The notes below the pieces were generated by a model. It did no database searches and was not told where the DNA came from. It saw nothing but the letters and a program-made list of their open reading frames with translations. A DNA stretch of 64,000 nucleotides from Frigoriflavimonas asaccharolytica (GTDB taxonomy: Bacteria > Bacteroidota > Bacteroidia > Flavobacteriales > Weeksellaceae). Shown here one piece after another: positions 7,986 through 25,056 of this stretch; position 1 is the first letter of the stretch, and every line of letters starts with the position of its first letter. Both the position numbers and the translations under genes were made by a program. The DNA lies in the NCBI RefSeq assembly GCF_013294015.1, contig NZ_JABSNO010000002.1:62001-126000 (forward strand), read 5' to 3'.

Positions 7986-9914
7986 TTAAATCTTTTTTTC
8001 TACAAAATACATATTAATTTCACCCTTGCCTTTTACCTCTATTTTGCCCCGATATTCGAAAACTAAATCTGGATTATCTTTCAAGTAATTGTAAATAGCT
8101 TCACTGATATTCACTTTCCCAACGACACCATTGCTTTCTAATCTGCTCGCAATATTTACGGTATTGCCCCAAATATCATATTGAAATTTCTTTATTCCAA
8201 CAATTCCTGCAATGATAGGTCCTGCGTGAATTCCTACTCTCATTTCAAATGCAGGCTTGTTTAAAAGTTCATTTTCTTGTTTCCTATTTTTTACAAATTC
8301 TTGCATTTCCAGTCCTGCCAAAACGATATTTAGCAAAGAAGCTTCATCCGGAATCGGAACACCACCAACCGCCATATAAGCGTCGCCAATTGTTTTTATT
8401 TTTTCAATACTATGCTTTTCAGTAATGATGTCAAAAGCTTTAAAGCATGTGTTAATTTCTTCCACTAGATCTTGCGGTGTCATCGTTTCTGCTGTCTTTG
8501 TAAAAGATTTAAAATCTGTAAACAATATGGTGGCGAGTTCAAAATCTCTGGCAACAACACTGCCTTTTTCTTTTAATTCTTCAGCTATTTCTTCTGGCAA
8601 AATATTTAAAAGCAATTTATCTGAACGGTCTTTTTCTATTTGAAGTGAATTTTTAGATTTTCTTACGAAGTTTAGCCTGCTCCAAAGTGCGGTTGCAATT
8701 AGAAATACTAAGCCTAAAGAAATTAATCCAATATTTCTTTGTTTTTCTTTTTGTGATACAACTTCATTATTCTTTAAACGGCTGATATTTTGTTTTTTAG
8801 CAAAATTAAGACTGTCCTTCAAATTTTGGTTGTCAAATTCCATTTGCATCAAACTATTGGTAGTTTCCTCTACTTTTAGACTGTCTTGAAAAACGCTGGT
8901 TTTCTCATAAAATTGTAGCGCAAGTTTATCGTTCCCTGTTTTTTTGTAGGCTTCATAAAGGCAATTGCAAGCTTTTTTCTTACTTAAATTAGATTCTAAT
9001 TTTTCAGCTAAATTCAAACCTTCTTTACATTTTTCAATTGCCACTTTGTGAAAGCCCAATTTATTGTAAATATTTCCAATAGCAACTGTATTTTCTGTTT
9101 TGTATTGCAAATTATTTAATTCGTTTGCTAAAGTAAGAGATAGTTTGTTTTTTAAAAGTGCGTTTTGGTAATCTTTATTTTTAAAATACAATTCAGATTG
9201 GTTTAATAAAACATCCATCTCAACATCTTTTTCACCGGTTTTCTTTGCTAAATTTATCCCATTATTAAAGTACGATTCAGCACTTCTATCATCATCTAGT
9301 TGCATGTAAGAATAACCCGTGCTAAGGTATAATTTAGCGAGAGAAAGATGATCATTAAGTTTTATAAAGGTCTTTTTTGCTTGATCGTAATATTTTAAAG
9401 AAGATTGATAATCTTTGTTTCTAGCATAAATACCACCTATGTTTTGCATTGTTGATGCTGCCATTTTTTCATCACCAATATTTTTAGATATAGAAAGTGA
9501 TTTTTTATATAAATCTAAAGCTTTTGGATAATTTCCTATATAATAATAGATGCCACCATTATTATTCATTCCCATTGCTATACCTTTATTAAATTTTATT
9601 TTTCTGAATTCAATAAGCGCTTTTTCATTATATTCTATGGCTTTTTTATACTCGCCTAAATTGTAATATGAATAAGAAATTAATGTAAATGTATCTCCAA
9701 TTTCTTTGTTGCTATTATTCTGTTGATAGAATTTTAAGATTTTTTCAAAATAAGGAAAAGTTTCTGAAGACTTTCCTATATCCTGCAATTTAGTAGCAAC
9801 TTTAGTTAAACTATCAGCAGTTTTCTTTGTATAAATAGTACTATTTTGTAAGTTTTGTGCCTGTATTTGATAACAAAAAAGGACTAAGATTGTAGCGATG
9901 AATTTGCATTTCAT
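7986..9914 (-). CDS. TPR-sensor class III adenylate cyclase
   Basis: Predicted to make cAMP in the cytoplasm. A signal-like segment (to about residue 19, ending IQAQ) is followed by six or seven tetratricopeptide repeats (about 35-345), a coiled coil, one membrane span (GLISLGLVFLIATALW) and a C-terminal class III cyclase domain. That domain shows ATILFTDFKSFT and KTIGDAYMAVGG with both metal Asp residues. The Lys of IKTIGD and the Asp of YDIWGNTVN are the adenine-selecting pair. The periplasmic TPR part would be the sensor. Start: I use ATG 9914, because the upstream in-frame TTG (9923) lies inside a perfect -7 box. It sits 62 bases after the system A regulator gene. Confidence 0.9.
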   Translation of the reverse strand: MKCKFIATILVLFCYQIQAQNLQNSTIYTKKTADSLTKVATKLQDIGKSSETFPYFEKILKFYQQNNSNKEIGDTFTLISYSYYNLGEYKKAIEYNEKALIEFRKIKFNKGIAMGMNNNGGIYYYIGNYPKALDLYKKSLSISKNIGDEKMAASTMQNIGGIYARNKDYQSSLKYYDQAKKTFIKLNDHLSLAKLYLSTGYSYMQLDDDRSAESYFNNGINLAKKTGEKDVEMDVLLNQSELYFKNKDYQNALLKNKLSLTLANELNNLQYKTENTVAIGNIYNKLGFHKVAIEKCKEGLNLAEKLESNLSKKKACNCLYEAYKKTGNDKLALQFYEKTSVFQDSLKVEETTNSLMQMEFDNQNLKDSLNFAKKQNISRLKNNEVVSQKEKQRNIGLISLGLVFLIATALWSRLNFVRKSKNSLQIEKDRSDKLLLNILPEEIAEELKEKGSVVARDFELATILFTDFKSFTKTAETMTPQDLVEEINTCFKAFDIITEKHSIEKIKTIGDAYMAVGGVPIPDEASLLNIVLAGLEMQEFVKNRKQENELLNKPAFEMRVGIHAGPIIAGIVGIKKFQYDIWGNTVNIASRLESNGVVGKVNISEAIYNYLKDNPDLVFEYRGKIEVKGKGEINMYFVEKKI

Positions 9915-9920
9915 ATAGGA

Positions 9921-9928
9921 CAAAAATA
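9921..9928 (-). promoter_or_regulatory. -7 box in front of the adenylate cyclase gene
   Basis: On the minus strand TATTTTTG matches TAnnTTTG exactly. Only six bases separate it from the ATG at 9914, so a transcript from here would be leaderless or nearly so. It also rules out the upstream TTG as a start on such a transcript. Confidence 0.5.
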
Positions 9929-9976: not shown

Positions 9977-10723
9977 CTATCTTTGTATTAAATTAATCTT
10001 TTCCAAAATTAAATCAATTTTTGAAGAAGAAACCGGTACATCTTTACCGCCTTCTAAATTTAGAGTTCCACCATCGGTTTTTTGATAAGAAACTACTTGC
10101 TCCATATTTACAATATAGGATCTGTGAACTCGTAGAAAATTTTCATCCAGACAAATTATATCTTCAAAATTCTTCAAATTTCTACTGATCAGATGTTTTG
10201 TACCATCTAAACAGCAAACTTCAGAATAAGAACCTTCGCCTTTTATGTATAGAATTTTAGTAGTATCCAGAAAAATAATTTTATTCCCACAAGGAACTGC
10301 AATTTTTTTTGCCTTTGTCGAAGCCATATTTTCTTTCAACATTTTTAAATTTTCCAATTTGGCATTTTGTTTTTTCATTCTTTCTATTGCAGACACCAAT
10401 TCTTCTGGATTAATGGGTTTTAATAAATAATCAATCGCGGAAAATTTAAATGCTTTGATTGCGTATTCATTGTAGGCAGTCGCAAAAATGATGGAAAAAT
10501 TAATCTCGTTTTCATCAAAAAAATCTAATAATTCTAAACCGCTATGTCCCGGCATTTCTATATCTAGAAACACCAAATCTGGCTTCAATTTCCGGATAGA
10601 TTTTACACCTTCTGGCAAATTTTCACACTGTGCTACGATTTCTACTTCTGGGCAGTATTCCTTTAGTAACAACTGCAAAGTAACTCTTGCTCTTTTTTCA
10701 TCGTCTATGATTATTGCTCTCAT
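9977..10723 (-). CDS. LytTR-family response regulator (system A)
   Basis: DNA-binding response regulator. The receiver domain has the acidic pair D7-D8, the phospho-acceptor D54 (VFLDIEMPG) and the conserved Lys in DYLLKPINPEEL. A C-terminal LytTR domain (about 145-248) shows KIAVPCGNKIIFLDTTKILYI, split here by its linker, and FLRVHRSYIVN. Partner kinase is the next gene upstream; the ATG at 10723 is two bases past the kinase stop, so the two are translationally linked. LytTR domains bind pairs of ~10-bp direct repeats one helical repeat set apart; the repeats at 13729-13760 and 15850-15881 are the obvious candidate sites. 248 residues, normal length. Confidence 0.93.
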   Translation of the reverse strand: MRAIIIDDEKRARVTLQLLLKEYCPEVEIVAQCENLPEGVKSIRKLKPDLVFLDIEMPGHSGLELLDFFDENEINFSIIFATAYNEYAIKAFKFSAIDYLLKPINPEELVSAIERMKKQNAKLENLKMLKENMASTKAKKIAVPCGNKIIFLDTTKILYIKGEGSYSEVCCLDGTKHLISRNLKNFEDIICLDENFLRVHRSYIVNMEQVVSYQKTDGGTLNLEGGKDVPVSSSKIDLILEKINLIQR

Positions 10724-10725
10724 TT

Positions 10726-13590
10726 TCAATTTTTTATAGGGATAGTTAGAATAATGGTGGTACCCAAAAATTGGCCGTTTTCTACTTTATCAATTGTTTC
10801 TATTTCTATATTTTTTTGGTTGAATTGATTCAATAAATCTATCCGATTTTGGGTGGCTTTTGTAGCAAAAGAAACGTGATTTTTATTTTTAATAGCATTC
10901 AGTTCACCGCTTTTTTGCCTTCCAATTCCATTATCATCTATGGTGATTTTTAATAATTCATTAGATTTTTCAAAAGAAATTTTTAAAATCTTTTTGCCTT
11001 TTTTATGCAGCAAACCATGCTTCAAAGCATTTTCTACAAAGGGTTGCAAAAGCATGCTTGGTATTTTTAAAAAATCGTTTTCACTTGACGAATTTGTAAT
11101 AATTGTATAGCTCAACTCATCTTCAAATCTTGCCTTTTCGATATCTAAATACAAGGTTAGCGCTTTTATTTCTTCAAATACCGATATTTCATCTTTTTCA
11201 GTCATTTCCAAAATCGTTCTTGTAAGATTGGAGAATTTTGAAAGATATTCTATTGCTTGTTTTTTTTCATTAGCCAAAATGTAAGATTGTAAAGTATTAA
11301 GTGCATTGTAGAAAAAATGAGGATTCATCTGCGATTTGATGGCCTTTAATTTAGATTGATTCACATTTTTTTCTAAATTTAATTGGTGAAGAAGCTTGGC
11401 ATTATTTACTTCTATAGTTTTTAATCTTCGTCTATATATAAAGATTACACAAGAGAGCAAAATAATACCAACTGCCAATAAGGTAAGAGGATTTAGCCAA
11501 AATGGTTTTTTTATTTCAAATTGTATCGTTTTTACAACAGGATTTTTTTGGTCTGCAATTCTAAAATGAATCTCGTAATCATCCGGAGAAAGTGCCGAAA
11601 GCAATAGAGATTGAGAATCCGTCTTCAACACATTCCACGGAGCATCATTGATCTTATATTCTATATTAAATTTTTCATTGGGAATGGAAGTAAGTATCGT
11701 GAAATCTATTTTTATATTGTTCTGTTGGTAGTCAAAAGCTAGTTTTTTCGAAAGGTCATAATTTTTGTCATTGGCAGATATATTTTCTAAAAATAAATTT
11801 ACTTTTGCAGCAGTATTAGGAGAATTTTCTTCTAGGGTAATAATTCCGTCGGCAGAAGCCAAATAATAATGCCCTTTGCATTTGCGTACATCTGAAATAT
11901 TGATATTTTTTGCCAGCGTAATTATTTTTTTAACCTTATTTTTTGCTAAATTAATTTCATAAATTTCATCTTTTGTGAATGCAAATAGCAGATTATCTTG
12001 AAATACCACCTTTTCGATAGGTTTTTCAATCTTTAATTTTTTGAGAGAGAAAAGCGTGATATTATTAGATTTATTTATGATGTATAGTTTTTCATTGCTA
12101 GAAAATGCATATACTTTTCCCTGGAAATAATGCAATTTATTGAGGTATAAACTTTCATTTTTATAGAAGATTTCTCTTTTATTAGTTGTAGACAAGGTGA
12201 TCAAGCCATTGTTTGTACCATAGTAGATTATATTATTTTCAGCATTGTAGGCAACAGATTTTCCGTTGGCGTTTGGGATTATTCCGTGAGAAAAATAATT
12301 GTCTTTTTCATATTTTGGAAATCTTGCAAACATGTCGTCCCAAACACTTTCTATGTTTTTATTTTTACCAAAAACGCCAGAAATATTACTTGCGGCATAA
12401 GCAAAATATTTATCGTCAATTTTTGTAATTGCTTTTACAGCGCCTATATTGATGGGAGTAGTTTTCTCAGCAGTATTTACTTGAAAAATAGAAGAGGTAA
12501 AATAAACATCATTTGTTTTTTCATCCGCAAATATTTGGTACACATCATGATTGAGTTTTCCGGTGTATATTTTTTTTGGTGGCTCATTTTTCATTAAGCT
12601 ATAGATTGCATCATTTTCTGTAGCAATGTATAAATGGCTTTTAGAATTGGCTAATACAGTAGGCTTGTAGGGTAGGGTGATGATTTGTGAATCAAAATTA
12701 CCTACAAAAAATACCCCTTCGTTTAAGGTAGAGATCCAATAATTTTCTTGTTGATCTAGGTATATAAAGGAAATGTTTTTTGTAGAAAAATAAGTTTTAT
12801 ATTGCCCTGTAATTGAGTTAAATTTCACTATTCCTTTGGTAGTGCAAAGCCAAATATTATCTTTGATGACGGCTATATTTTGCACAAAATCTAAATCTGG
12901 AATGTCAAATTTTTTAAGAATGAATTTTCCATTTTTGAAATAGCAGTATTTTTTAGAAAATTTAGAGATAATTACCAAATCATCGCCTTTTTTTTGAACG
13001 ATTGGTGCAGAAAATTCTTCTAAAAATTTTTCGGGATAAGCGTAAGATTTTACATTACCGTGACGATCTATTTCGTACAACATTTTATCAAAAATGTAAA
13101 ATTTATCGTTACCAGAAAAAATAAAACTGATATGATTAAGATCTAGTTTTATTTTCTTTTCAGGGTTTAACGTTTTTAAATTGTATAGTTGTACGCCATT
13201 TTTTTCTATTATTTGTAGCGTTTGATCTGTAACACCATACCGAAAATATCCCAGTGGTTTATTTTGTTTGAAAGTTTTTAGCTTTTGATTTTGAACATAA
13301 TATAAATAGCCATCAAAATTCTCATACCAAATTCTACCGTATTTATCTTGCTGAATATTGCTGCCAGATTTTGCTGTTTGAATATCTGAAGTATAAGTTT
13401 TTGTAAAATTGCCATCATAGCGAGATAAACCTTTGCCAGTGCCAAACCACATAAAACCATTTTTATCTTGAAAAATATCATACACCGCATTTGCAGGCAA
13501 ACCAGAAGATTGATCTATGGTAATATGATAGGGATTTTGTGCTACAACAAAACCTGTAATCATTAGAAATATTAAAACCCAGTTTTTCAA
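10726..13590 (-). CDS. Propeller-type LytS-like sensor histidine kinase (system A)
   Basis: Membrane sensor kinase. Signal peptide (residues 1-18, ending FVVAQ), then a periplasmic two-component-regulator propeller (NGFMWFGTGKGLSRYDG near residues 49-65), a Y_Y_Y domain around 630-690, one membrane span (LLAVGIILLSCVIFIYRR), a His_kinase domain (QMNPHFFYNALNTLQSYI, His about 758) and a HATPase domain (LQPFVENALKHGLLHKKG). It lacks an HTPP one-component C-terminus, so it needs a separate regulator, encoded next. The start is TTG at 13590, chosen because it gives a complete signal peptide and lies 20 bases after a perfect -7 box; the first in-frame ATG (13563) would remove half the signal peptide. 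Confidence 0.9.
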   Translation of the reverse strand: MKNWVLIFLMITGFVVAQNPYHITIDQSSGLPANAVYDIFQDKNGFMWFGTGKGLSRYDGNFTKTYTSDIQTAKSGSNIQQDKYGRIWYENFDGYLYYVQNQKLKTFKQNKPLGYFRYGVTDQTLQIIEKNGVQLYNLKTLNPEKKIKLDLNHISFIFSGNDKFYIFDKMLYEIDRHGNVKSYAYPEKFLEEFSAPIVQKKGDDLVIISKFSKKYCYFKNGKFILKKFDIPDLDFVQNIAVIKDNIWLCTTKGIVKFNSITGQYKTYFSTKNISFIYLDQQENYWISTLNEGVFFVGNFDSQIITLPYKPTVLANSKSHLYIATENDAIYSLMKNEPPKKIYTGKLNHDVYQIFADEKTNDVYFTSSIFQVNTAEKTTPINIGAVKAITKIDDKYFAYAASNISGVFGKNKNIESVWDDMFARFPKYEKDNYFSHGIIPNANGKSVAYNAENNIIYYGTNNGLITLSTTNKREIFYKNESLYLNKLHYFQGKVYAFSSNEKLYIINKSNNITLFSLKKLKIEKPIEKVVFQDNLLFAFTKDEIYEINLAKNKVKKIITLAKNINISDVRKCKGHYYLASADGIITLEENSPNTAAKVNLFLENISANDKNYDLSKKLAFDYQQNNIKIDFTILTSIPNEKFNIEYKINDAPWNVLKTDSQSLLLSALSPDDYEIHFRIADQKNPVVKTIQFEIKKPFWLNPLTLLAVGIILLSCVIFIYRRRLKTIEVNNAKLLHQLNLEKNVNQSKLKAIKSQMNPHFFYNALNTLQSYILANEKKQAIEYLSKFSNLTRTILEMTEKDEISVFEEIKALTLYLDIEKARFEDELSYTIITNSSSENDFLKIPSMLLQPFVENALKHGLLHKKGKKILKISFEKSNELLKITIDDNGIGRQKSGELNAIKNKNHVSFATKATQNRIDLLNQFNQKNIEIETIDKVENGQFLGTTIILTIPIKN

Positions 13591-13618: not shown

Positions 13619-13728
13619 GAAAGAAGTTCGTATTTATTTCCCTCAGCTTTTTTGAAAATTCAATTTCAAGGCTTTTAATTCTTCCAAAAAGGCTACAAAA
13701 AACTGTTTTGATAAACGAAAACCGACGT

Positions 13729-13795
13729 TTCGTAAACTGGAAGTGACGATTCGTGAGTTGATCTATTATTTTTAAAAAATTTGCCTCTACATTTG
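13729..13795 (+). promoter_or_regulatory. LytTR-type direct-repeat operator and -7 box, site A1
   Basis: TTCGTAAACTG (13729-13739) and TTCGTGAGTTG (13750-13760) are direct repeats with a 21-base period. Then 27 bases, then the perfect -7 box TACATTTG (13788-13795). Read on the other strand the repeat is CAGTTTACGAA, close to the LytTR half-site form. No -33 TTG is conserved, which fits an activator-dependent promoter. It drives the three-gene unit starting at 13812. Confidence 0.72.
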
Positions 13796-13811
13796 ACGTA
13801 TTAAAACACCA

Positions 13812-14219
13812 ATGATGAAAAAATATTTATTTGCAGTATTTCTTTTTATGCTCAGTTTTGTTTCTGCCCAATTGAGCAGTGATGTATTGGGAAAATGGAA
13901 TTTAAAACTGAGCGTTTCTACAGAATTTAAAGATACAGAAACCGCGATGAACCAAGTGAAAAGCAATACTGCAAAATATTCTTATTTAAATGATAGTGTT
14001 TGGAATTTTAAAAAAGAAGGAGAACTGGAAGTTAAATTAAAAAACGGAACTACAGAATTAGCAAATTACAGTGCTAATGAAAATCGTTTTATCATTATTT
14101 TTCAAAAAGAAGATATAGAAGAATTTAATACAACCAATATAGTGCTGGAAGATAAAAAGATAAAACTATCTATGGGAAGAGGGATGACGCAGTTGGTATT
14201 TCAGTTTGTGAAAAAATAA
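13812..14219 (+). CDS. Small secreted protein of unknown function
   Basis: Signal peptide at residues 1-20 (MMKKYLFAVF..., ending VSAQ). The mature part, about 115 residues, has the rhythm of a lipocalin-like beta barrel: VLGKWNLKLSV near the start, then alternating strands and a final LVFQFVKK. A lipocalin-like fold is an inference from pattern only. It is the first gene of a three-gene unit (spacings 21 and 31 bases) placed behind operator A1, so it is probably induced by system A. An alternative start is the second ATG, one codon on. Confidence 0.72.
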   Translation: MMKKYLFAVFLFMLSFVSAQLSSDVLGKWNLKLSVSTEFKDTETAMNQVKSNTAKYSYLNDSVWNFKKEGELEVKLKNGTTELANYSANENRFIIIFQKEDIEEFNTTNIVLEDKKIKLSMGRGMTQLVFQFVKK

Positions 14220-14240
14220 TATAATTTAAAAAATAATACA

Positions 14241-14891
14241 ATGATGAAAACTTTTTTATTTGTAGCAAGTTTGGCTTTGGTAATGAGCTCTTGCAAAAAA
14301 AATGCAGAAACTTCTGCAAAAGTAGAAACAAAAGCAGACACAATTTCTGTAGATGATGAAAATGCAGGTTACGAAATGAATGCAGAGGTTACCACTTCAG
14401 AAAATTATGAAATGTTTATCCCAGATGGATATGATTTGCTTGCAAAAGCAGAAGGCGACATCAATAACGATGGAATATCAGATTTGGTGATGGTTGTGAA
14501 AAGTCAGCAAGAAAAAGCCGACGAAATGCCAGGAGAAGATGTATCTGGTAGAATTTTAATTTTGCTTACAAAAGATAGCAAAGGAATGTACTCTAGAGCC
14601 GGAGAAAACACGAATGCAATTTTGGCAAAAAATGAAGGTGGTGCCGCTTCTGATGATCCGTTTGAAGGAATAGAAATTACGCCAGGAAAATTCAACATCA
14701 CACATATGGGAGGAGCTGCAGAAAGATGGAGTTATGAGCATGTTTTCACTTATGATAAAGCTGCAAATGCATGGTTTTTGACAGAAAAAAACACGGGAAG
14801 CTTTAGCACAATGGATCCTACAGCCGAAAATATGGAAAAGGAAACACCAAAACAATTTGGGAAGATTAACTTTTTAGATTTTAAATTGTAG
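14241..14891 (+). CDS. Lipoprotein of unknown function
   Basis: The N-terminus MMKTFLFVASLALVMSSCKK has a lipobox with Cys at residue 18, so the product should be a lipoprotein. A low-complexity Ala/Glu/Lys linker (19-50) is followed by a globular part with DINNDGISDLVMVV (about 72-85), an FG-GAP/VCBS-like calcium-loop motif. GKFNITHMGGAAERW follows later. Family not recognised. Second gene of the unit behind operator A1, suggesting an envelope role together with its neighbours. Confidence 0.72.
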   Translation: MMKTFLFVASLALVMSSCKKNAETSAKVETKADTISVDDENAGYEMNAEVTTSENYEMFIPDGYDLLAKAEGDINNDGISDLVMVVKSQQEKADEMPGEDVSGRILILLTKDSKGMYSRAGENTNAILAKNEGGAASDDPFEGIEITPGKFNITHMGGAAERWSYEHVFTYDKAANAWFLTEKNTGSFSTMDPTAENMEKETPKQFGKINFLDFKL

Positions 14892-14922
14892 ATAATATTT
14901 CACAAAATAAAACAATATCAAG

Positions 14923-15618
14923 ATGAAAAAAATGATCATCAGTTTTGCAGTTTTTTTTGCCGTAGCCAGTTGTTTTGCGCAAGATAAAAGTATTGCACAT
15001 TCCATTAATAAAGCAGCTTGGGAAGAAGAAATTTCGCCAGAAGTAATGGCGGAAATGGGCATTGAATATCCAATTTTCAAAGTTTTTCAATATGAAGATT
15101 TGAAAGGAGAAGCAATGATAGTTCTTACCGAAAATAATGTATCTAAAAATTCAAAAGGAGAACCTGTCAATACTGCAATTTCTGCTTTTCTATTAAGAGG
15201 AAGTAACGGAAATTTCACCAAAGAGTGGGAAAACTCTCACGATATTAGCAAAGATGCGCAAAGCGAAAGCTCAATCTGGTATTGGAGCAAATATTTTGAT
15301 TGTATGGATGTGGATAATGATACAGAATCTGAAACTTTCTTAGTTTTTGGAACTGCAGGAGACAATGGTTTTGATGATGGTCGGGTATTTATAGAGATTT
15401 ATTATGAGGGAAAATTAATTTCCATAGAACATCAAAACGCGGTGAAAGATATGGATAGGATTTTATTAATAAGTCCAGATTTTTACAAATTACCAGGAGT
15501 AGTGCAAGAAAAAGCAAAGTACAAAATGAAACAAATGGTCACTGCAAAACAAGCCATTTTCCCGAATAATTGGGAACAAAAAATGGCAGCGAAAAAAACG
15601 GAAATTAGAGAAAGATAA
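14923..15618 (+). CDS. Secreted protein of unknown function
   Basis: Signal peptide at residues 1-20 (ending SCFAQ). The mature part carries CMDVDNDTESETFLVFG (about 126-142), a DxDxDxxxE-type acidic loop that recalls calcium-binding repeats and parallels the DINNDG loop of the preceding lipoprotein. The C-terminal ~50 residues are Lys-rich and likely helical. No known family. Third gene of the unit behind operator A1; a terminator follows. Confidence 0.7.
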   Translation: MKKMIISFAVFFAVASCFAQDKSIAHSINKAAWEEEISPEVMAEMGIEYPIFKVFQYEDLKGEAMIVLTENNVSKNSKGEPVNTAISAFLLRGSNGNFTKEWENSHDISKDAQSESSIWYWSKYFDCMDVDNDTESETFLVFGTAGDNGFDDGRVFIEIYYEGKLISIEHQNAVKDMDRILLISPDFYKLPGVVQEKAKYKMKQMVTAKQAIFPNNWEQKMAAKKTEIRER

Positions 15619-15667
15619 TCTAATTATCGAGAAATTTCACCATGAAATCTAAAAGATGAAGAGGTCT

Positions 15668-15706
15668 ATGCACGAATAATTTTATTTAAAATTCGTGCAT
15701 TTTTTG
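15668..15706 (+). terminator. Terminator of the secreted-protein unit 13812-15618
   Basis: ATGCACGAAT (15668-15677) pairs perfectly with ATTCGTGCAT (15691-15700), followed by a T run. Confidence 0.85.
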
Positions 15707-15773
15707 GTTAATAATTAAGGTGATTTGAGAAATAGTGAAGTATTAAATTCTGACAAATAATAAAATCTAAACA

Positions 15774-15845
15774 ATGAAAAAATTACTACAAATCTTATTG
15801 CAAAGGTATTTTAATATAGAATGGAAATACCAAAGTAGAAAATAG
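15774..15845 (+). CDS. Possible 23-residue peptide or gene remnant
   Basis: ATG at 15774 opens a 23-codon frame (begins MKKLLQILLQRYF) ending at TAG 15843-15845, five bases before the system A operator A2. The start context matches neighbouring secreted-protein genes (AAACAATGAAAAAA), but the frame has no clear -7 box and no long hydrophobic stretch. It may be a leader remnant left by a deletion. The rest of 15707-15942 holds only this frame and operator A2. Confidence 0.2.
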   Translation: MKKLLQILLQRYFNIEWKYQSRK

Positions 15846-15849
15846 CCAT

Positions 15850-15916
15850 TTCGTAAACTGAAAACCCACTTTCGTAAACTGGGATAAAAAAACTGCTCAT
15901 CACTGGAGTACATTTG
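15850..15916 (+). promoter_or_regulatory. LytTR-type direct-repeat operator and -7 box, site A2
   Basis: Two identical copies of TTCGTAAACTG at 15850-15860 and 15871-15881, period 21. The perfect -7 box TACATTTG (15909-15916) begins 28 bases after the last repeat base, exactly as at site A1. The sequence between repeats and -7 box is not conserved, so the shared spacing points to a common activator. It drives the LamG/T9SS gene at 15943. Confidence 0.75.
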
Positions 15917-15942: not shown

Positions 15943-17586
15943 ATGAAAACAAAATTACTTTTACTTTTTTTAGTAATTACCACTTTCGCAAAAGCACAAG
16001 TTACTTTTTCAGAAAATTTTGATGCGGCAACACCAGATCTTACAGGTTGGGTTTATACAGATTTTACAATAGGAGGAAGTATAGCATGTTCTGGTACAAA
16101 ATCTTTAACTAAAGATTTCAATGCGGTAAATTCCACTGGTAGAGTAACTACCAAGAATTATGTTTCAACTGGAGGAGACATTACCTTTACGCATACCTTG
16201 AGAATGTTAATATTAGGACCAAATAATGCCCAAGCAAACTTTAAAATCGGATATTCCGTAAATAATGGTTCAGATGTTACAGTTTTAAATGCAATGGGAG
16301 GTTATGTTCCTAGTTGTAGTGCAGGTTTTCCGATGACAATTCCTGGGAGTGCAGTTCCTGCTGGTTCTAATGTGAAAATATTTGTGCAGTACCAGCAAGC
16401 AGATTATACTTTTAGATTAGGTTTGGATAATTTTGCTGCAGTACAACAAGCTGCGCCGACTGTAGTATCTGCTACAGCAAATCCTATTTTCAATGGAGGT
16501 ACCATCAATTATGTTTTAAATGCGAATACATTGGCTACAACTTCTGTAATTAATTATGGATTGTCTAGCACAGCATTATCCAATCAAATTCTAGGTTCTA
16601 ATGCTTCTGGATCTACAGATACTGCTTTTGCTGCAGATATTACAGGTTTACTTCCAGCAACCACTTATTATTATCAAGTTGTAGCCACCAATTCTTTTGG
16701 TAGCACAAGCTCTACTATAAATAGTTTTATTACAGGAACTTCTGAACCAATTGCAGAGTATAACTTTAATAATACTATGAATAATATCAATGGAAATTCT
16801 CCTTTCGCAGTGAATAGTTCTACTTATGTCGCGGGAAGAGATAGTAATTCTCAAATGGCATTGCAAACTAATAATTTTGGAAGAAGTGCAATTATTCCTA
16901 ATTTACCTGTTGGTACTGTTTCAAGAACTGTTTCTATTTGGTATAAAGTTACTGGGACTAGCGCAAACAACACCTTGTTTGTATATGGAGCTGGTAGTGG
17001 AGAGAGTGCTTATGGAGTTTCATTTAATACTACCAATACATGGTATAATTTTGCTTGGAATACCAGTACTTCATTTTCGAATGCATCAAATGATGGTCAA
17101 TGGCATCATCTTGTAACCACATTTGATTCAAGTAAAACTACGAAAATGTACGTAGATGGAGTTTTAAAAAACACCGTAGTTCAAAATGGTTGGAATACAA
17201 GCACAAGTGGAAATGTATTTTGGCTGGCTGGACAGTTTGGTAATTCTTCACCTTTCAATGGAGCTGTTGACGATTTGAAAATTTATAATTATGCCTTAAC
17301 GCAAGCACAGGTAACAGCATTATTTACAAATGCAACTTTAGCAACCACAGAAAACACCATAAAAACCAAAGATATTTCCATCTACCCAAATCCTGCAAAA
17401 GATTTTGTAAATATCCAATCTGAAAATAAAGTACAAACTGTAGAAATCTACAATATGGCAGGTCAAAAAGTATTGGAAACTAGAGAAATGAAAATCAATA
17501 CTTCTAATCTAAAACCTGGCGTTTATATGGTGAAAATTAAAGATGTTGATAACCAAATCTCTTCTCAAAAATTAATAATTAAATAA
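15943..17586 (+). CDS. Secreted LamG-domain protein with T9SS type A sorting domain
   Basis: Exported adhesin- or enzyme-like protein. Signal peptide 1-18 (ending FAKAQ); an N-terminal jelly-roll-like region; a fibronectin-III-like segment (about 172-265, with LLPATTYYYQVVATNSFG); a LamG/concanavalin-like domain (about 268-460, with WHHLVTTFDSSKTTKMYVDG and DDLKIYNYALTQAQV); and a C-terminal type IX sorting domain (about 478-547, with IYPNPAKDFVNI, NMAGQKVLE and LKPGVYMVKI). The sorting domain means passage through the outer membrane by T9SS. Its promoter carries operator A2, so it is a likely target of system A. The ligand is unknown. Confidence 0.9.
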   Translation: MKTKLLLLFLVITTFAKAQVTFSENFDAATPDLTGWVYTDFTIGGSIACSGTKSLTKDFNAVNSTGRVTTKNYVSTGGDITFTHTLRMLILGPNNAQANFKIGYSVNNGSDVTVLNAMGGYVPSCSAGFPMTIPGSAVPAGSNVKIFVQYQQADYTFRLGLDNFAAVQQAAPTVVSATANPIFNGGTINYVLNANTLATTSVINYGLSSTALSNQILGSNASGSTDTAFAADITGLLPATTYYYQVVATNSFGSTSSTINSFITGTSEPIAEYNFNNTMNNINGNSPFAVNSSTYVAGRDSNSQMALQTNNFGRSAIIPNLPVGTVSRTVSIWYKVTGTSANNTLFVYGAGSGESAYGVSFNTTNTWYNFAWNTSTSFSNASNDGQWHHLVTTFDSSKTTKMYVDGVLKNTVVQNGWNTSTSGNVFWLAGQFGNSSPFNGAVDDLKIYNYALTQAQVTALFTNATLATTENTIKTKDISIYPNPAKDFVNIQSENKVQTVEIYNMAGQKVLETREMKINTSNLKPGVYMVKIKDVDNQISSQKLIIK

Positions 17587-17599: not shown

Positions 17600-17636
17600 A
17601 ACCTTGTCAAGGTTTTAAACCTTGACAAGGTTTTTT
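17600..17636 (+). repeat. Solo copy of the REP palindrome, acting as a terminator
   Basis: A 33-base palindrome (17600-17632) built from two AACCTTGWCAAGGTT cores around TTA, followed by a T run. Apart from the loop (CCA there) it is the same element as the copies around the RAYT gene at 47.9-48.8 kb. Placed 13 bases after the LamG/T9SS stop, it should also work as its terminator. Confidence 0.85.
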
Positions 17637-17668: not shown

Positions 17669-17992
17669 ATGAAAAAACTAATTCTAGCAGTATTTGCATC
17701 TATAGTATTGGCTTCTATGAGCTTTTCTAAAATTGAAAATTCCACAGAAATCGTCAGTGTAAATAAATCTGACAAGTTGGATATCAAAATTAAAAATGAT
17801 ACCAGCGATGTCGTGAAGGTAATCAACGCCGGAAGTGGCGGAAGTTATTCTTTATCAAAAGGCACAACTACAAGCATCAAAATGGAAGAAGGCGACAAAT
17901 TGCATTATTATGCAAACGGTAAAAAAGGCGATTTGATCTTAACAGCATCCAAAGAAATGGACGGAAAAGTGCAATTGCTGAGCAAATTATAA
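17669..17992 (+). CDS. Small secreted protein of unknown function
   Basis: 107 residues with a signal peptide (MKKLILAVFASIVLASMSFS). The mature part is Lys/Ser-rich and beta-like; it contains GSGGSYSLSKGTTTSI followed by KMEEGDKLHYYANGKKG. No family recognised. It stands between the solo REP/terminator and a second terminator, so it is probably its own unit; no operator of the A type is visible in front of it. Confidence 0.68.
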   Translation: MKKLILAVFASIVLASMSFSKIENSTEIVSVNKSDKLDIKIKNDTSDVVKVINAGSGGSYSLSKGTTTSIKMEEGDKLHYYANGKKGDLILTASKEMDGKVQLLSKL

Positions 17993-18400: not shown

Positions 18401-21364
18401 TTGAAAAATTTAAAACTTTTTACAATCTCAGTATTCCAGACAAAATTTCGGAATTTTTTTTTATGCATTTTTATCATGCTATTTCAAAATGGGATTGCAC
18501 AAGAGCCTGTCAGTATTCAATTCACACAAAAAGATGGACTGCCAGATAAAGAATTTTACAGAATAGCTGAAGATAAAACCGGCCTTATTTGGCTGGCAGG
18601 AAACAAAGGACTCACCAAATATGATGGCAACGAATTCAGCACTTTAGAAAATTCTGAAAAGCGAGGTTTTTCAGTTTTTGAACTAACTGTGGATGACGAC
18701 GATAGGAAATGGTGCATCAATATTTCTGGGCAGTTATTCTATGCCGTAAATGATCATTTAATTTTATACAAAGATTTCAAAAAAGATTTGAAGGGGAATT
18801 TGGCAGAGCTGATCTATCATGATGGTTTTCTGGTGGTAAGCACCTATTTTATTATCATCACCATAGATATAAAGGACAATATAATAAGAAAATTCCCGAA
18901 TGAAACTTTATATTTTAGCAGACCAAGCATCATCAACAAGCAAATCGTTTTTTGGACACATAGGCAAAGATTTATAATAAAAAATGGAATTATAGTAGGA
19001 GCTAATAAACACCAATTTCCGAAATCAAAATCCAACGATCTTATTAGAGAAATCCCATTAGAAGGGAATAAAAACTTATTTGTTTATTTAATAAATGGAA
19101 AAATAACAAATGCTTATTTATTTGATAACAAAAAATTTCTGAAGATAGATGTGCCAAAAGAAATCTTGGCAACTTCTATCAATCTCATAAAAACGGAAGG
19201 TAATTCTGTTTGGTTTCTCTGCAAAAATGGTGCGTTTCAAACCTCTTTTTCAAGCGGAAAACTCAGTATTGCAAATCATTATTTTAAAAATGAAATAATT
19301 ACCGATTTTATAATTGATAGTGATGGTAATTCTTGGTTTTCTAGTTTAGATAAAGGAGTTTATGTATTGCCAAATACAAAAATCACAGACGTTGCTTATG
19401 ATGAAAAACTAGGAGAACCTCTGAAAATATTGAAGGGGAAAGAGAACGATTTGCTCGTTGGTTTTAGTTCTGGTAAACTGTTAATTTACAATACTTTAAG
19501 TTTAGAAAAAACCATCGTAAATCTACCAAAGGAGAATAGAGTTTCCGCGGTAAGTTATGATAGATTTGGAGATAGATATTTGGTATTTCAAGATATAAAG
19601 CTTTTTCAAGTAAGTACCAAAAAGCCTTTCAATTTTACTGAAATTCCGAACGAATCTGTTGCCATGAAGCAAGTAGAATTTTTCTCTGAAAAAGAGTATT
19701 TGTTTTCACAATTTACCAGGTCTGGAATTTCAAAAGTGGAAAATTTTCCGAAAATTACTGCCTCTTCTTTTCAAAAAATAAAAAGAGGTTATGCTTGCCA
19801 TTACAATCCTATTTCAAAACTGAGTTTCTTTGGTTTTGTAGACGAATTGGTGATTTTCGACCACGATAAAAATCAAAATTATACGGTAAAAACAGTCGCT
19901 GGTAAAGATCTATTTGCACATTCTATATTGCATACCAATGATGGCTTCACATGGATTGCTACATTTAGCAAAGGTATATTTCGGATAAAAAATAAAAGAA
20001 TTGTAGCGCATTTTACCACAAAAAACGGACTACTTTCTGATAGAGTAAATGCTCTGGCTACAGATAATAATACCATTTGGATTGCCACGGAAAAAGGAAT
20101 TCAGATTGGTAAACTCAATAACAGGAAGCTTGAATTTACCAACTTGTTTACGCAAGATGGCGTTCCCTCATACAATATTTCAGATATGGCTGTTGTGGGA
20201 AATTCCGTCTATTTTAGTTCGCCAGAGCGAATTTTTGCTATTGAGAAAAATTTTGAAAAATCTGCACTTAAGCGAGCGAAAATCTATTTTACTTCAATAA
20301 AAATAAACCAAGAAAATCAAAAAATTTCTTCTAATTATCTGTTGGAAAATAGGAATAGCAATGTTGTAATTCAATTTAATGTAAATGGTTTGGGTGGCAT
20401 TTCTGGAAACCAATTTGAATACAGACTAAAAGGCTTAAATGAAAAATGGACTTTATTAGACATCGGAAAAAGAGAAGTACAATTTGCGAATCTGCCAAGT
20501 GGAAATTTCACCTTTCAACTGCGATCTGTTTCCAATAGAAACGACGCAGAACATTTAAAAGAAATAAAATTTGAAGTAACCAAAGAATTCTACGAATCTG
20601 TGTGGTTTTGGATTGCAGTATCCATACTATTATTGCTGCTGGTTTATCTATATTTTAAAAGAAAAATCAAACTAGAAAAGCAAGTTTCGGAAGAAGAGAA
20701 AGCGAAATTATTTTTGGATAATCAATTGATCAATTTAAAACTAGAAAATCTACAATCTCAAATGAATCCGCATTTTATTTTTAATGCTTTAAATAGTATT
20801 CAAGAATATATTGTGCACAACAAAAAGGAATTAGCGAGTAGTTATTTGGTTAAATTTTCTCGTTTAATTCGGCTTTATTTAGATCAATCTAGAGAGAATT
20901 CTGTATCGCTCGAGCAAGAACTAATGGCGATGAAGCTGTATCTGGAATTAGAAAAAGTTCGGTTTGAAGATAAGCTGGAATATACCTTGAAAATTAATTG
21001 TGAAATTAAGGCGTCGGAAATATATTTGCCACCATTATTTATACAACCTTATGTAGAAAATGCCTTTAAACACGGCTTGTTACATCGGAAAACGGATAGA
21101 AAATTGCTGGTAGAATTTCATTATGATGAATCCACAAAAATACTTTCCATTTGCATAGAAGATAATGGAATTGGCAGAATTGCTGCGCAAAAATTGAAAT
21201 TTGCCCGACCAAATTACCATACTTCTTTTGCCACATCTGCCAATGAAAAACGAGTAGCTTTAATCAATGAAAATAGAGCCCAAAAAATATCTGTAGAAAT
21301 TATAGATGTAACGGAAAATGGAATGGCAAGCGGAACAAGAGTTTGCGTGCAAGTGCCGCAGTAG
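18401..21364 (+). CDS. Propeller-type LytS-like sensor histidine kinase (system B)
   Basis: Paralogue of the 10726-13590 kinase with the same order of parts: signal segment (to about residue 34, ending GIAQ), periplasmic propeller (KTGLIWLAGNKGLTKYDG), Y_Y_Y domain (about 645-735), membrane span (WIAVSILLLLLVYLYF), His_kinase domain (QMNPHFIFNALNSIQEYI, His near 793) and HATPase (FIQPYVENAFKHGLLHRK). The start is TTG at 18401, which gives the full signal segment; the first in-frame ATG (18476) falls inside the hydrophobic stretch. No regulator adjoins it. The nearest one, 24304-25056, lies beyond two secreted-protein genes and is the presumed partner. Confidence 0.88.
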   Translation: MKNLKLFTISVFQTKFRNFFLCIFIMLFQNGIAQEPVSIQFTQKDGLPDKEFYRIAEDKTGLIWLAGNKGLTKYDGNEFSTLENSEKRGFSVFELTVDDDDRKWCINISGQLFYAVNDHLILYKDFKKDLKGNLAELIYHDGFLVVSTYFIIITIDIKDNIIRKFPNETLYFSRPSIINKQIVFWTHRQRFIIKNGIIVGANKHQFPKSKSNDLIREIPLEGNKNLFVYLINGKITNAYLFDNKKFLKIDVPKEILATSINLIKTEGNSVWFLCKNGAFQTSFSSGKLSIANHYFKNEIITDFIIDSDGNSWFSSLDKGVYVLPNTKITDVAYDEKLGEPLKILKGKENDLLVGFSSGKLLIYNTLSLEKTIVNLPKENRVSAVSYDRFGDRYLVFQDIKLFQVSTKKPFNFTEIPNESVAMKQVEFFSEKEYLFSQFTRSGISKVENFPKITASSFQKIKRGYACHYNPISKLSFFGFVDELVIFDHDKNQNYTVKTVAGKDLFAHSILHTNDGFTWIATFSKGIFRIKNKRIVAHFTTKNGLLSDRVNALATDNNTIWIATEKGIQIGKLNNRKLEFTNLFTQDGVPSYNISDMAVVGNSVYFSSPERIFAIEKNFEKSALKRAKIYFTSIKINQENQKISSNYLLENRNSNVVIQFNVNGLGGISGNQFEYRLKGLNEKWTLLDIGKREVQFANLPSGNFTFQLRSVSNRNDAEHLKEIKFEVTKEFYESVWFWIAVSILLLLLVYLYFKRKIKLEKQVSEEEKAKLFLDNQLINLKLENLQSQMNPHFIFNALNSIQEYIVHNKKELASSYLVKFSRLIRLYLDQSRENSVSLEQELMAMKLYLELEKVRFEDKLEYTLKINCEIKASEIYLPPLFIQPYVENAFKHGLLHRKTDRKLLVEFHYDESTKILSICIEDNGIGRIAAQKLKFARPNYHTSFATSANEKRVALINENRAQKISVEIIDVTENGMASGTRVCVQVPQ

Positions 21365-21456
21365 AAAATTCAACTATAAACTGAAAATTCATTTAAAACT
21401 CTAAAAATCTTAAAAATCGCAAAAATTTTGGATTTCCGACATCTAATTTTAACGCT

Positions 21457-21532
21457 TTTTCGGCAATTCAGCAAAAAATTCGGTTATTCAGAAAACCGTG
21501 ATATGAAAACCTGATTATAAGTAGTTATTTTG
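21457..21532 (+). promoter_or_regulatory. LytTR-type operator and -7 region, site B1
   Basis: A 35-base element (21457-21491) holding direct repeats TTCGGCAATTCAG and TTCGGTTATTCAG with a 20-base period. The -7-like TTATTTTG (21525-21532) begins 34 bases after the last repeat base, followed by GATAAATAATCAATACAA. The element and spacing match site B2. It drives the gene at 21559. Confidence 0.7.
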
Positions 21533-21558
21533 ATAAATAATCAATACAATTTATCATT

Positions 21559-22389
21559 ATGAAAACTAAATTACTCTTCTTAACAATAATGCTTATTACA
21601 AGTTTTGGATTTGCCCAAAAAACACTTTTTGAAACTTTAGAAGCACATGGCGAAGATGCTGTTTATACCACTTATTATTCCTTTTACAGAGATGGAGACA
21701 AAGAAAAAGGCTACTATACAGAAGGAAGTAAAGGTGAAAAAGTACATCTTAAAATTTTCAGAACTGCGAGTGGAGTTCCAATGGGAATTCATGTAATGAA
21801 AGTAAGCGATAATTCTAGAATTGAGCATGCAACTACAGAATACGACGATACCAAAATGGATCATTATCCTTTAGTAGCAACAATTACGAAGCCAAGAGAA
21901 TCTTTTTTGGCTATTGATAATATGGCTTTTTTTCTAAGATATTTTAATAATGAAGATGGTACTTTTCAAGAAATTAATAGAATATATGTTTTAGATGAGC
22001 CCAATAAAACAGAAGCAAATAAAACAAAAAAGAAAGGAGGTTTTTTTAATAAAATAAAAGCAGCAGCTGTTAAGAACTACACAAAAGCAGGTAAAACAGA
22101 TGATAACCAAAAGGCTTTTACGGCCATAAATTTAGATGAAAAAATTACAAACCATTGGAAAGCTTTAAAAAATAAACAAAAGAATTACAAAAGAACTGCT
22201 AAAGACGAAAAGGAATATGCAGATATCGTAGATTTTATAGTTGAAAAATACAAAAAAATAGACTCGAAAAATGCTGCCTATTGGAATAGTCCAGAAGGGA
22301 AAAAAACACTTGGCGTTTGGAGGTTAAGAGCTGCCCACAAAGCAAGTTGCCCAAAAACAGCAGAATCTTGTGATAGTTCTTATCATTAA
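21559..22389 (+). CDS. Secreted protein of unknown function, system B target
   Basis: 276 residues with a signal peptide (ending SFGFAQ). The N-terminal half is beta-rich; the middle is a Lys-rich linker with a GGFFNKIKAAAVKN segment (about 155-170); the C-terminal half is helical and carries two Cys close together (SCPKTAESCDSSYH) at the end. No family recognised. The promoter has operator B1 and a terminator follows at 22444, so it is a single-gene unit. Confidence 0.72.
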   Translation: MKTKLLFLTIMLITSFGFAQKTLFETLEAHGEDAVYTTYYSFYRDGDKEKGYYTEGSKGEKVHLKIFRTASGVPMGIHVMKVSDNSRIEHATTEYDDTKMDHYPLVATITKPRESFLAIDNMAFFLRYFNNEDGTFQEINRIYVLDEPNKTEANKTKKKGGFFNKIKAAAVKNYTKAGKTDDNQKAFTAINLDEKITNHWKALKNKQKNYKRTAKDEKEYADIVDFIVEKYKKIDSKNAAYWNSPEGKKTLGVWRLRAAHKASCPKTAESCDSSYH

Positions 22390-22443
22390 TCTAACACCAT
22401 CATTAAAAATAGTAGTTGCGGTAAAATTTTACAACTAATTATT

Positions 22444-22472
22444 AAAAGGAAGTTTTAAAAGCTTCCTTTTTT
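22444..22472 (+). terminator. Intrinsic terminator after the 21559 gene
   Basis: AAAAGGAAG (22444-22452) pairs with CTTCCTTTT (22462-22470), followed by TT. Confidence 0.8.
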
Positions 22473-22531
22473 GTATTTAAAAAAACTATAAATCCGCAAT
22501 AATTTCTATCTCGAATATCAGATTTTTAAAC

Positions 22532-22607
22532 TTTTCCGTAGTTCAGCAAAATATCAGGTTATTCAGAAAGTGCCTTTAGGAAAACTCGATAAATACACCC
22601 AATTTTG
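22532..22607 (+). promoter_or_regulatory. LytTR-type operator and -7 region, site B2
   Basis: A 35-base element (22532-22566) identical to site B1 at 29 of 35 positions without gaps, with GTTCAG and ATTCAG half-site ends 20 bases apart. The -7-like CAATTTTG (22600-22607) begins 34 bases after the last repeat base, and the following GATCAATAATCAATGAAA matches the same region of B1. It drives the gene at 22645. Confidence 0.7.
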
Positions 22608-22644
22608 ATCAATAATCAATGAAAAACAACTTAAATCAATCATT

Positions 22645-24156
22645 ATGAAAAAATTTTTATTAATTTTTTTTACAATTTTAATAGTTCAAATTTCAACTGC
22701 ACAAGTATATGTAGCCTCAGATGTAGTTGGCGGAGCAAATAATGGAACTAGTTGGGCAAATGCATATACTAGTTTACAAAATGCATTGCTCGTAAATTCT
22801 TTTAATGGAGCAAAGGAATTTTGGGTAAAAGCAGGAACTTATACACCTGGAACTAGCCAATCAGATATGTTTACCATTTATCCAAATCAAACTGTATATG
22901 GTGGATTTAATGGTACAGAAACAATGTTAAACCAAAGAAATTTCCGTACAAATTCTACCATCTTATCTGGAGATTTATTGGGAAATGACAATCAATATTC
23001 ACTCATTTTTAATGATCCTTTGCGACATGACAACGCCTATACAGTTGTAAGAATGCTAGGTGATACCCCCGTTTTAGATGGTCTAACTATCGCTCGTGGA
23101 AATGCGGAAGGTTCTATAGCATCAGTTCAGAAAGGTGCAGCTATTTATATTGTTAATGCTGCAAATGCTAAAATAGAAAATTGCATTATAGAAATGAATG
23201 CTTGCTATGGTGGTGGTGCAATTTTCAGTGAAGACCAAATAGGTTCGCCAAATATGACAACCTATATCAAAGGAAATATTTTCAGAAAAAATTTGGCAAG
23301 TTATGCACCAGCAATTTATTACGTAGCAAAAAATGGAACTCAATTTAACATAGAATTAGAAGACAATTTATTTTACTACAACGAAGTAAAGCCAAGAGCG
23401 GGAAATACCGGTTCAAACGCAATAATTTGGTTTAGAAATCCTGTAGGAACGGCAAGTTTAGAAGCTAAAATTGTAAATTCTACTTTTGTCGAAAATTTTA
23501 TGTCTGGTACAACGCCAAGTTCTGTACAACCTGTAGTTGCAGCATCTAAAGAAGGAAGTGGAGCAATGACTTTAAAAGTTTATAATTCCCTTTTCTATTA
23601 CAACTATTTAAATGGAGCACCTGCAACAGCCATTGGAACTTTTGGCAATATTGCCGCAGGAACGTACCAAGCAAGAAATAGTGGTGATGAATCTGGCTTT
23701 GCCAATATTACTGATAAAATAAATTGTATTAATTCTGCACCGCAATTTGTCAATTCCTCGAATAATGATTATAGACTTACTGCAACTTCCGACTATGTAG
23801 ATATTGGAAACAACAGTTATGCAAACGGAAACAACCAAGATTTAGACGGAAATCCGAGAATTTTTGGTACAGTTGTAGATGCGGGAGCATTTGAATTTGG
23901 CTCAAGTACTTTGGCAACTGCTGAAGATATCTCAAAATTAAAATTTACCATTTATCCAAATCCTGTATCAGATTTTTTGAATATAAAAGCAGATTTTCAA
24001 ATTGATACTGTAGAAATTTACAACCTTGTAGGACAAAAAATTCTGATTGGTAAATCTTCTGGTTTGAATGTTTCAAAATTAAAAGTAGGCGTTTATGTAC
24101 TTAAAATTACCAAAAATAATGGGGAAGTAGCGATGAAGAAGTTTATTAAAAGATAA
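22645..24156 (+). CDS. Secreted beta-helix protein with T9SS type A sorting domain
   Basis: Signal peptide (residues 1-20, ending STAQ); a right-handed parallel beta-helix of the kind found in polysaccharide-active or adhesive proteins (about 25-415). Evidence for the helix: NGTSWANAYTSLQNAL, the extracellular pectin-lyase-like GGFNGTE, and repeating N-I-x-N turns. A C-terminal type IX sorting domain (about 432-503) shows IYPNPVSDFLNI, NLVGQKIL and LKVGVYVLKI. No catalytic triad can be assigned. The promoter carries operator B2, so it is a likely system B target exported through the outer membrane. Confidence 0.88.
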   Translation: MKKFLLIFFTILIVQISTAQVYVASDVVGGANNGTSWANAYTSLQNALLVNSFNGAKEFWVKAGTYTPGTSQSDMFTIYPNQTVYGGFNGTETMLNQRNFRTNSTILSGDLLGNDNQYSLIFNDPLRHDNAYTVVRMLGDTPVLDGLTIARGNAEGSIASVQKGAAIYIVNAANAKIENCIIEMNACYGGGAIFSEDQIGSPNMTTYIKGNIFRKNLASYAPAIYYVAKNGTQFNIELEDNLFYYNEVKPRAGNTGSNAIIWFRNPVGTASLEAKIVNSTFVENFMSGTTPSSVQPVVAASKEGSGAMTLKVYNSLFYYNYLNGAPATAIGTFGNIAAGTYQARNSGDESGFANITDKINCINSAPQFVNSSNNDYRLTATSDYVDIGNNSYANGNNQDLDGNPRIFGTVVDAGAFEFGSSTLATAEDISKLKFTIYPNPVSDFLNIKADFQIDTVEIYNLVGQKILIGKSSGLNVSKLKVGVYVLKITKNNGEVAMKKFIKR

Positions 24157-24190
24157 GCTTCTATATATCTGCTCATTTTTATAAAAATGC

Positions 24191-24211
24191 GGTCGCTGAG
24201 CTTGTCGAAGC
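24191..24211 (+). repeat. Dispersed CTGAGCTTGTCGAAGC element
   Basis: GGTCGCTGAGCTTGTCGAAGC; the core CTGAGCTTGTCGAAGC recurs at 53622-53637 and, with changes, near 49588-49602. The same short word is common between genes in many flavobacterial genomes (from memory). Confidence 0.55.
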
Positions 24212-24303: not shown

Positions 24304-25056
24304 ATGAAAGTCCTAATTGTAGACGATGAAGAAAAAGCCAGAGCGGTTCTAAAGACTTTATTACAGGAGAATTGCCCAGAAATAAATCAGATATTACAGG
24401 CAGAAGATTTAGATTCTGGAGTAGCCTTAATAAAATCTGAAAGACCAAATCTCGTGTTTTTAGATATAGAAATGCCAGAAAAATCTGGTCTTCAAATCTT
24501 AGAAGCATTCGAAAACGAGCCTATAGATTTCCAAATCATTTTCGTTACAGCTTACAATGAATTTGCCATAGAAGCATTCAAATTAAGCGCTGTAGATTAT
24601 CTATTGAAACCTATAGATATTTCAGAATTAAAGGCTGCATTTCAAAAAGCTTTACAACAAAAAGAGCAACAAAATATTACAAAAAATTTAGAAGATTTAC
24701 GCGCCTCATTTCAAAAAATATCCAAGCAAAAATTAGCATTAGAAGTACCAAGAGGAATGATCTTCGTGGATTATGATGATATTGTATATTTCGAAGCAGA
24801 TGGAATGTACACCACAGTTAGTCTTAAATCTCAACGAGATAAACTGATATGCAAACCATTAAAACATTTTGCAGAACAGATTGAAGGCAACCCAAATTTC
24901 TACAAACCGCACCGATCTTACATTATTAATATCAATTGCATCAAAGAATTCCACAAAAAAGACGGTGGCTACATCGTAATGGAAAACGACAAAGAAATTG
25001 CAATTTCCAGAGATAAAAAAGAAGAATTTTTCATGTTAATTCAGCAGGCATTTTGA
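24304..25056 (+). CDS. LytTR-family response regulator (system B)
   Basis: 250 residues. Receiver domain with D7-D8, phospho-acceptor D54 (VFLDIEMPEK) and DYLLKPIDISEL; then a Lys/Gln-rich linker and a LytTR domain (about 145-250) with LALEVPRGMIFVDYDD and PHRSYIININ. It is a close paralogue of the 9977-10723 regulator. It stands alone after a strong terminator and needs its own promoter, though no clear -7 box is visible. The presumed kinase is 18401-21364. The direct repeats of sites B1 and B2 differ from the A sites, as expected if the two LytTR domains read different words. Confidence 0.93.
   Translation: MKVLIVDDEEKARAVLKTLLQENCPEINQILQAEDLDSGVALIKSERPNLVFLDIEMPEKSGLQILEAFENEPIDFQIIFVTAYNEFAIEAFKLSAVDYLLKPIDISELKAAFQKALQQKEQQNITKNLEDLRASFQKISKQKLALEVPRGMIFVDYDDIVYFEADGMYTTVSLKSQRDKLICKPLKHFAEQIEGNPNFYKPHRSYIININCIKEFHKKDGGYIVMENDKEIAISRDKKEEFFMLIQQAF

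Follow-up and report, generated by a model that had tools for sequence, protein, structure and literature searches.

Background

LytTR regulators are common in the Bacteroidota. In a short search of the open literature, no operator with an experimental description turned up for any two-component LytTR system of that group. Where their sites have been studied, LytTR regulators bind two repeats of 9–11 bases that lie 11–13 bases apart (PMC4847170). In the bacteriocin regulon of Lactobacillus plantarum, PlnC and PlnD recognise TACGTTAAT-N12-TACGTTAAT, immediately ahead of the core promoter; both bind identical repeats, with opposite effects (PMC2714321). AgrA likewise binds twin repeats, the proximal one near -60 (PMC4227749). 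Closer in lineage are the LRS-like LytTR operons of Bacteroides, for which a study of 2018 predicted twin repeats at a distance of 34 bases ahead of TATCTTTG (PMC6193735).

The present study concerns two sites, A1 and A2, in a 64,000-nucleotide stretch of the genome of Frigoriflavimonas asaccharolytica, which we call the window. A preliminary description, made from the sequence alone, proposed that both are operator-promoters of an adjacent kinase and LytTR regulator, here called system A.

Results

Sequence and layout of A1 and A2

The elements of the two sites, with predicted promoter positions, are as follows.
13708..13718, plus strand: A1 distal (third) half-site TTGATAAACGA, in register, 21 bases before the next half-site
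13729..13739, plus strand: A1 half-site TTCGTAAACTG, -71 to -61
13750..13760, plus strand: A1 promoter-proximal half-site TTCGTGAGTTG, -50 to -40
13767..13774, plus strand: candidate alternative -7 box TATTTTTA, 28 bases after the A1 middle half-site
13788..13795, plus strand: A1 -7 box TACATTTG, distance class d=28, predicted +1 near 13800
15850..15860, plus strand: A2 distal half-site TTCGTAAACTG, -71 to -61
15871..15881, plus strand: A2 proximal half-site TTCGTAAACTG, -50 to -40, identical to the A2 distal copy
15909..15916, plus strand: A2 -7 box TACATTTG, predicted +1 near 15921

The period is 21 at both sites, which can be read as 11-base repeats 10 apart or as 9-base cores 12 apart. Both boxes (TACATTTG in each) fit the Bacteroidota sigma-A -7 pattern TAnnTTTG and, read from the sequence, start 28 bases past the last repeat base. 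Twin repeats of this period and a perfect -7 box at this distance had both been claimed; the repeats are present letter for letter at A1 and A2 and the distance is exact at each. It had also been stated that the sequence between is not conserved, and indeed the spacers have diverged with the repeats and their spacing kept. The proximal half-site of A1 is the weakest half-site, and the alternative TATTTTTA at 13767..13774 is weaker than the box at 13788.

In the transcription start map of Flavobacterium psychrophilum the sigma-A box occupies -12 to -5 (PMC9723704), so the A1 and A2 starts are expected near 13800 and 15921. This would put the half-sites at -71 to -61 and -50 to -40, where an activator in contact with RNA polymerase would be expected to sit. 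No TTG or TTTG stands at the expected position of a -33 element in A1 or A2, which agrees with what had been reported. The promoters should therefore be weak alone, consistent with dependence on an activator. A scan for sigma-70 type promoters was uninformative, with 40 found against 43 expected.

Uniqueness in the window and the genome

A1 and A2 are the sole matches to the pattern in the window at up to three mismatches, where 0.07 were expected, and none of 100 shuffles of the window yielded two matches. They are also the sole matches with 0–2 mismatches in the 3.43-Mb genome. Two further matches with three mismatches are at background level (the reversed-pattern control gave one). The genome-wide search that the preliminary description had proposed as a check returned A1 and A2 alone at 0–2 mismatches.

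System A and the neighbouring transcription units

The genes and terminators around the sites are:
9977..10723, minus strand: system A LytTR response regulator, 248 aa, proposed binder (PF00072, 79.6 bits; PF04397, 61.3 bits)
10726..13590, minus strand: system A sensor kinase, 954 residues, propeller-type sensor and His_kinase (PF06580, PF07494)
13812..14219, plus strand: first gene of the A1 unit, 135-aa exported protein of no family
14241..14891, plus strand: second gene of the A1 unit, 216-aa lipoprotein-like protein of no confident family
14923..15618, plus strand: third gene of the A1 unit, 231-aa secreted protein of the M949_RS01915 family (NF046077; 90.2 bits, cut-off 60)
15669..15705, plus strand: terminator of the 13812-15618 unit, stem 15669-15699 followed by T6 (fold -11.4 kcal/mol, z -3.4)
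15943..17586, plus strand: A2 target, a single gene for a LamG protein with a type IX secretion (T9SS) sorting tail
17600..17632, plus strand: terminator after the LamG gene, 15-bp stem

The proposal had placed a LytTR gene and its kinase beside the sites, and the domain matches bear this out (PF00072 and PF04397 in the one, PF06580 and PF07494 in the other). The regulator combines receiver and LytTR domains, both over cut-off, and its gene begins 2 bases beyond the kinase gene on the minus strand. Given the terminators, the LamG gene forms a separate transcription unit. In a structural model of the regulator, the LytTR domain matches AgrA-DNA complexes with a TM score of 0.80-0.84 by target length at 1.8 A; the model also matches full-length ComE. 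As its mean pLDDT is 73.7 and the receiver part is weak, the model is taken to support the domain fold only.

Two further features of the neighbourhood are recorded here. Directly downstream of the system A LytTR gene, a TPR protein that also has a nucleotide cyclase domain of class III is encoded at 7986-9923 on the minus strand; this gene is not conserved next to the orthologous systems checked. A family of exported proteins of about 107 aa, without a Pfam match, recurs by system A orthologues, at 17669-17992 in the window and in three other loci (L019 272-592, L022 6232-6555 and L053 3144-3359). The L022 copy has its own upstream twin repeat.

Conservation of the operator with system A orthologues

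Named genomes were scanned with the regulator protein alone, which yielded orthologues in Flavobacterium (L012-L019, 60-67% identity) and more distant ones. All eight Flavobacterium loci have TTSGTWAACTS-like twins of period 21 followed by TAnnTTT(G/A), and these sit in the gap that separates the kinase-LytTR operon from a divergent gene for an exported protein. In L019 there are three promoters of this kind, each ahead of a gene of LamG/T9SS type. In L014 (7115-9988, Flavobacterium covae) the kinase gene is split over several frames and so looks broken; the regulator and operators there are intact.

A weight matrix was built solely from the eight Flavobacterium loci and then applied to all other sequence. 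It gave 39.0 bits for A2 and 23.7 bits for A1, against a maximum of 14.1 bits in simulated sequence (1.28 Mb, both strands). The pair 13708/13729 scored 29.4 bits, and 19.8 bits when the box was left out, and this revealed the third half-site in A1. Triple half-sites are also present in L048, L050 and L022. Among the held-out loci the matrix matched L048, L049, L050, L053, L055, L022 and L067/L093. Orthologues of at least about 57% identity have the same operator beside kinase or secreted genes, apart from L051, where it is weak, and L052 (56% identity), where the kinase is broken and there is no operator. Most orthologues under about 56% identity (45-56%) have no recognisable site (L054, L056-L060, L106, L108, L110-L114, L116, L117). 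At one distant orthologous locus (L109, 10400-12560), two genes of T9SS type share twins with an altered box, GAnTTTCG, at 28.

The target genes are conserved as well. The operator lies upstream of LamG homologues in L012, L015, L016, L018, L019, L048, L049 and L093. L048 is from the nearest relative in the family (71% regulator identity), and there the operator precedes a divergent LamG/T9SS gene whose product is 44% identical to the LamG protein of the window. Regulator, operator and LamG gene were therefore probably linked before these lineages diverged, unless the block moved between them. The association of the sites with system A, as first put forward, therefore extends to other genomes in which the same operator accompanies the LytTR orthologues, and at the level of sequence comparison the pairing of operator and regulator is shown by conservation.

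In most loci a second operator, the mirror image of the first, faces the kinase gene (L012-L019, L048, L049, L053, L055 and L093), and probably reflects autoregulation in these relatives. None was found before the window's own kinase, where the best score was -1.4, although that kinase has a TATATTTG box. The window thus lacks an operator before the regulator's own operon, the arrangement expected of positive autoregulation. The preliminary description had missed this absence, along with the third half-site of A1 and the parallel systems C6 and C20 treated below.

Geometry of the repeats and the -7 box

Pairs of half-sites were then scored blind to the box, and TAnnTTT(G/A) was sought at all distances from 8 to 60. 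The 32 pairs found at period 21 had the box at 27 (16 times) or 28 (13 times), and all other distances in that range together held 7 boxes. Three of these 7 lie at 49, that is 28+21, with a third repeat in register (A1, L048 and L050). As a control of the period, 10 held-out pairs occur at 21 and 0-4 at each of 30 other periods. The operator, as read from these sequences, lies just upstream of the core promoter, as in LytTR operator-promoters.

Blind searches of other genomes

The exact pattern, with at most one mismatch, had no match in 295 other genomes of the same family, so the letters of the window appear to be lineage-specific and only a looser consensus is shared. A loose pattern found 22 places in 396 genomes of the order, against 21 for the reversed control. 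The motif alone is therefore not specific and was discarded as a predictor at the scale of genomes, which needs the box and the neighbourhood as well. The box is in register at three of the 22 places, namely A2 in the window, one place in G081 and one in G339. These three adjoin a kinase A orthologue and a LamG gene; the other 19 do not. The orthologous regulator (E below 1e-75) is present in four of the 396 genomes. In the fourth, G459, which its sequence identifies with the organism of L018, the operator is also present, at a higher number of mismatches. The loose pattern was designed after the Flavobacterium and G081 sites had been seen, so G339 alone is fully independent.

Eight of the 22 places belong to a tandem 21-base array around TTAGTTAACTCTGCCTTCTG in genome G306 (L070, L075-L081). 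The array mimics the operator period without a -7 box or a LytTR neighbour, and was set aside.

Further LytTR systems in this genome

Seven LytTR genes are present in the genome. System B occupies 18401-25056 of the window, and consists of a propeller kinase, two exported-protein genes with twin operators of their own type, and a LytTR gene:
18401-21364: system B propeller kinase
21463..21494, plus strand: first twin operator of system B, TTCAGMAAA, period 20, ahead of 21559
22538..22569, plus strand: second twin operator of system B, TTCAGMAAA, period 20, ahead of the T9SS gene 22645-24156
24304..25056, plus strand: system B LytTR regulator, 40% identical to the A regulator, proposed binder of the B operators

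Genome-wide, TTCAGMAAA twins occur only at the two system B operators, whose boxes, TTATTTTG and CAATTTTG, are off-consensus. System C6 has TTCACCAAGT twins of period 21 before two exported-protein genes, and these are the only two in the genome with 0-2 mismatches, both 2-3 kb from the C6 regulator. The C6 twins (L032 4860-6120) precede a DUF4139 gene and a SIMPL gene, with the box 27-28 after them and a mirror copy on the other strand. In system C20 (L028 12900-13080), TTCAGT twins of period 21 precede the gene of a secreted alpha/beta-hydrolase, at 2-3 kb from a LytTR gene. The proximal half-site has its TTC 37-38 bases ahead of the box in all four systems (A, B, C6 and C20), and the repeat letters differ. 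The regulators differ too in their loop residues, which read KGEGxYSE in A, EADGMYTT in B and QADGNFTQ in C6. Of the repeat pairs found genome-wide for A, B and C6, none is farther than about 5 kb from the LytTR gene of its system. No such twin repeats were found near three short-kinase LytTR genes (L029-L031).

Discussion

What do A1 and A2 do? From the comparative evidence and by analogy with described systems, we consider them to be promoters that the adjacent two-component system A activates, with a probability of roughly 0.87. Very likely, then, system A would switch on neighbouring secreted, surface-type proteins. The propeller kinase (10726-13590) would sense a signal outside the cytoplasm and, by analogy with AgrA, PlnC and their LytTR relatives, phosphorylate the LytTR regulator (9977-10723). 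A dimer of the regulator would bind the two TTCGTWAACTG half-sites (-71 to -61 and -50 to -40), which share one face of the DNA, and 13708 in A1 is a candidate place for a third protomer. Once bound, it may aid the housekeeping sigma factor at the -7 box TACATTTG, which has no -33 partner. As outputs, the 13812-15618 unit would supply its exported proteins, and 15943-17586 the LamG/type IX secreted protein. In this scheme we infer the signal, binding, phosphorylation and activation rather than repression by analogy.

The sign of regulation is not readable from sequence, and the PlnC and PlnD precedent, in which the same repeats serve opposite effects (PMC2714321), gives some room for a system A regulator that represses as PlnD does, or acts both ways, its targets coming on at signal loss. 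We regard this as improbable because the sites, which reach to about -40, stop short of the core promoter and so occupy an activator position, the missing -33 element should leave the promoter weak unaided, and LytTR operators so placed are mostly activating in the literature compared. Could another regulator bind the A sites? The LytTR regulator of system B is the obvious candidate, being about 8 kb off in the same layout and 40% identical. However, B owns twins of different sequence and period 20, and A-type sites track A orthologues in genomes that were found via the A protein alone, which makes another binder very unlikely. It is also true that one duplication could explain two copies in one locus, A1 and A2 having been copied with their genes, and that functionless repeats could be such an artefact or chance. 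Against this, the same grammar recurs in other genera and is mirrored before the kinase, three further LytTR systems show it in other letters, and the spacers have diverged around repeats and spacing that are unchanged. Chance or duplication is the least credible of these explanations, and hardly to be expected.

If A1 and A2 are activator promoters of system A, they offer a clean example of an activator that may replace a missing -33 element. It is about an even bet that they belong to a general promoter class of the Flavobacteriia, in which TTC-core LytTR twins stand 37-38 bases before a -7 box that lacks a -33 element, and each propeller-kinase/LytTR pair has a private and motif-distinct set of a few such promoters, at most some kilobases away, for exported and T9SS surface proteins, the letters varying and the spacing fixed. 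Were this so, fixed spacing with regulator-specific letters would make it feasible to deduce LytTR regulons directly from sequence. The fixed geometry observed makes testable local regulons of orphan kinase-LytTR pairs and links them to secreted LamG/T9SS proteins.

How does system A compare with the systems already described? Its sites appear to have the marks of LytTR operator-promoters, as judged from sequence: the repeats and their period, the core promoter, a regulator with receiver and LytTR domains, and co-occurrence across genomes. YpdB (with a GGCATTTCAT twin) and BtsR of Escherichia coli share with it a LytS-type kinase, a LytTR regulator and two repeats 11-13 apart, but differ in repeat letters, sensor domains and targets; BtsR is the best named model match, at 171 bits, under the cut-off of 246. 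The LRS-like operons of Bacteroides thetaiotaomicron and B. ovatus are likewise from Bacteroidota and have predicted twins (TCCGGTATTCA-N11-ACCGGAAATCA) with a box TATCTTTG at a fixed distance, their repeat letters resembling the system B and C20 sites (PMC6193735). They differ in that their regulators are membrane-anchored one-component proteins, the period is 22 and they are described as autoregulatory only. The LRS class, a receiver-less regulator with a membrane inhibitor, was rejected for system A, in which a receiver domain and a kinase are present. AgrA at agr P2/P3 of Staphylococcus aureus is alike in the dimer, the two direct repeats upstream of weak promoters and the LytTR fold, but its proximal repeat is centred near -60 rather than near -45 as in system A, and signal and kinase class differ.

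PlnC and PlnD resemble system A in being LytTR response regulators and in the CGTTAA core, the period of 21, the orientation and the place upstream of the core promoter. They belong to another phylum and serve peptide quorum sensing from -35/-10 promoters, whereas system A has the Bacteroidota -7 box without a -33, a propeller kinase and secreted surface proteins. Since the repeats have the core and the spacing of the PlnC/PlnD and AgrA type, and related Bacteroides repeats were predicted earlier, operators of this kind are already known. What the sequences compared here add is the pairing of a two-component LytTR regulator with its operator in the Flavobacteriia by comparative evidence, a precise rule for the distance to the -7 box, and the private, local promoters of each system.
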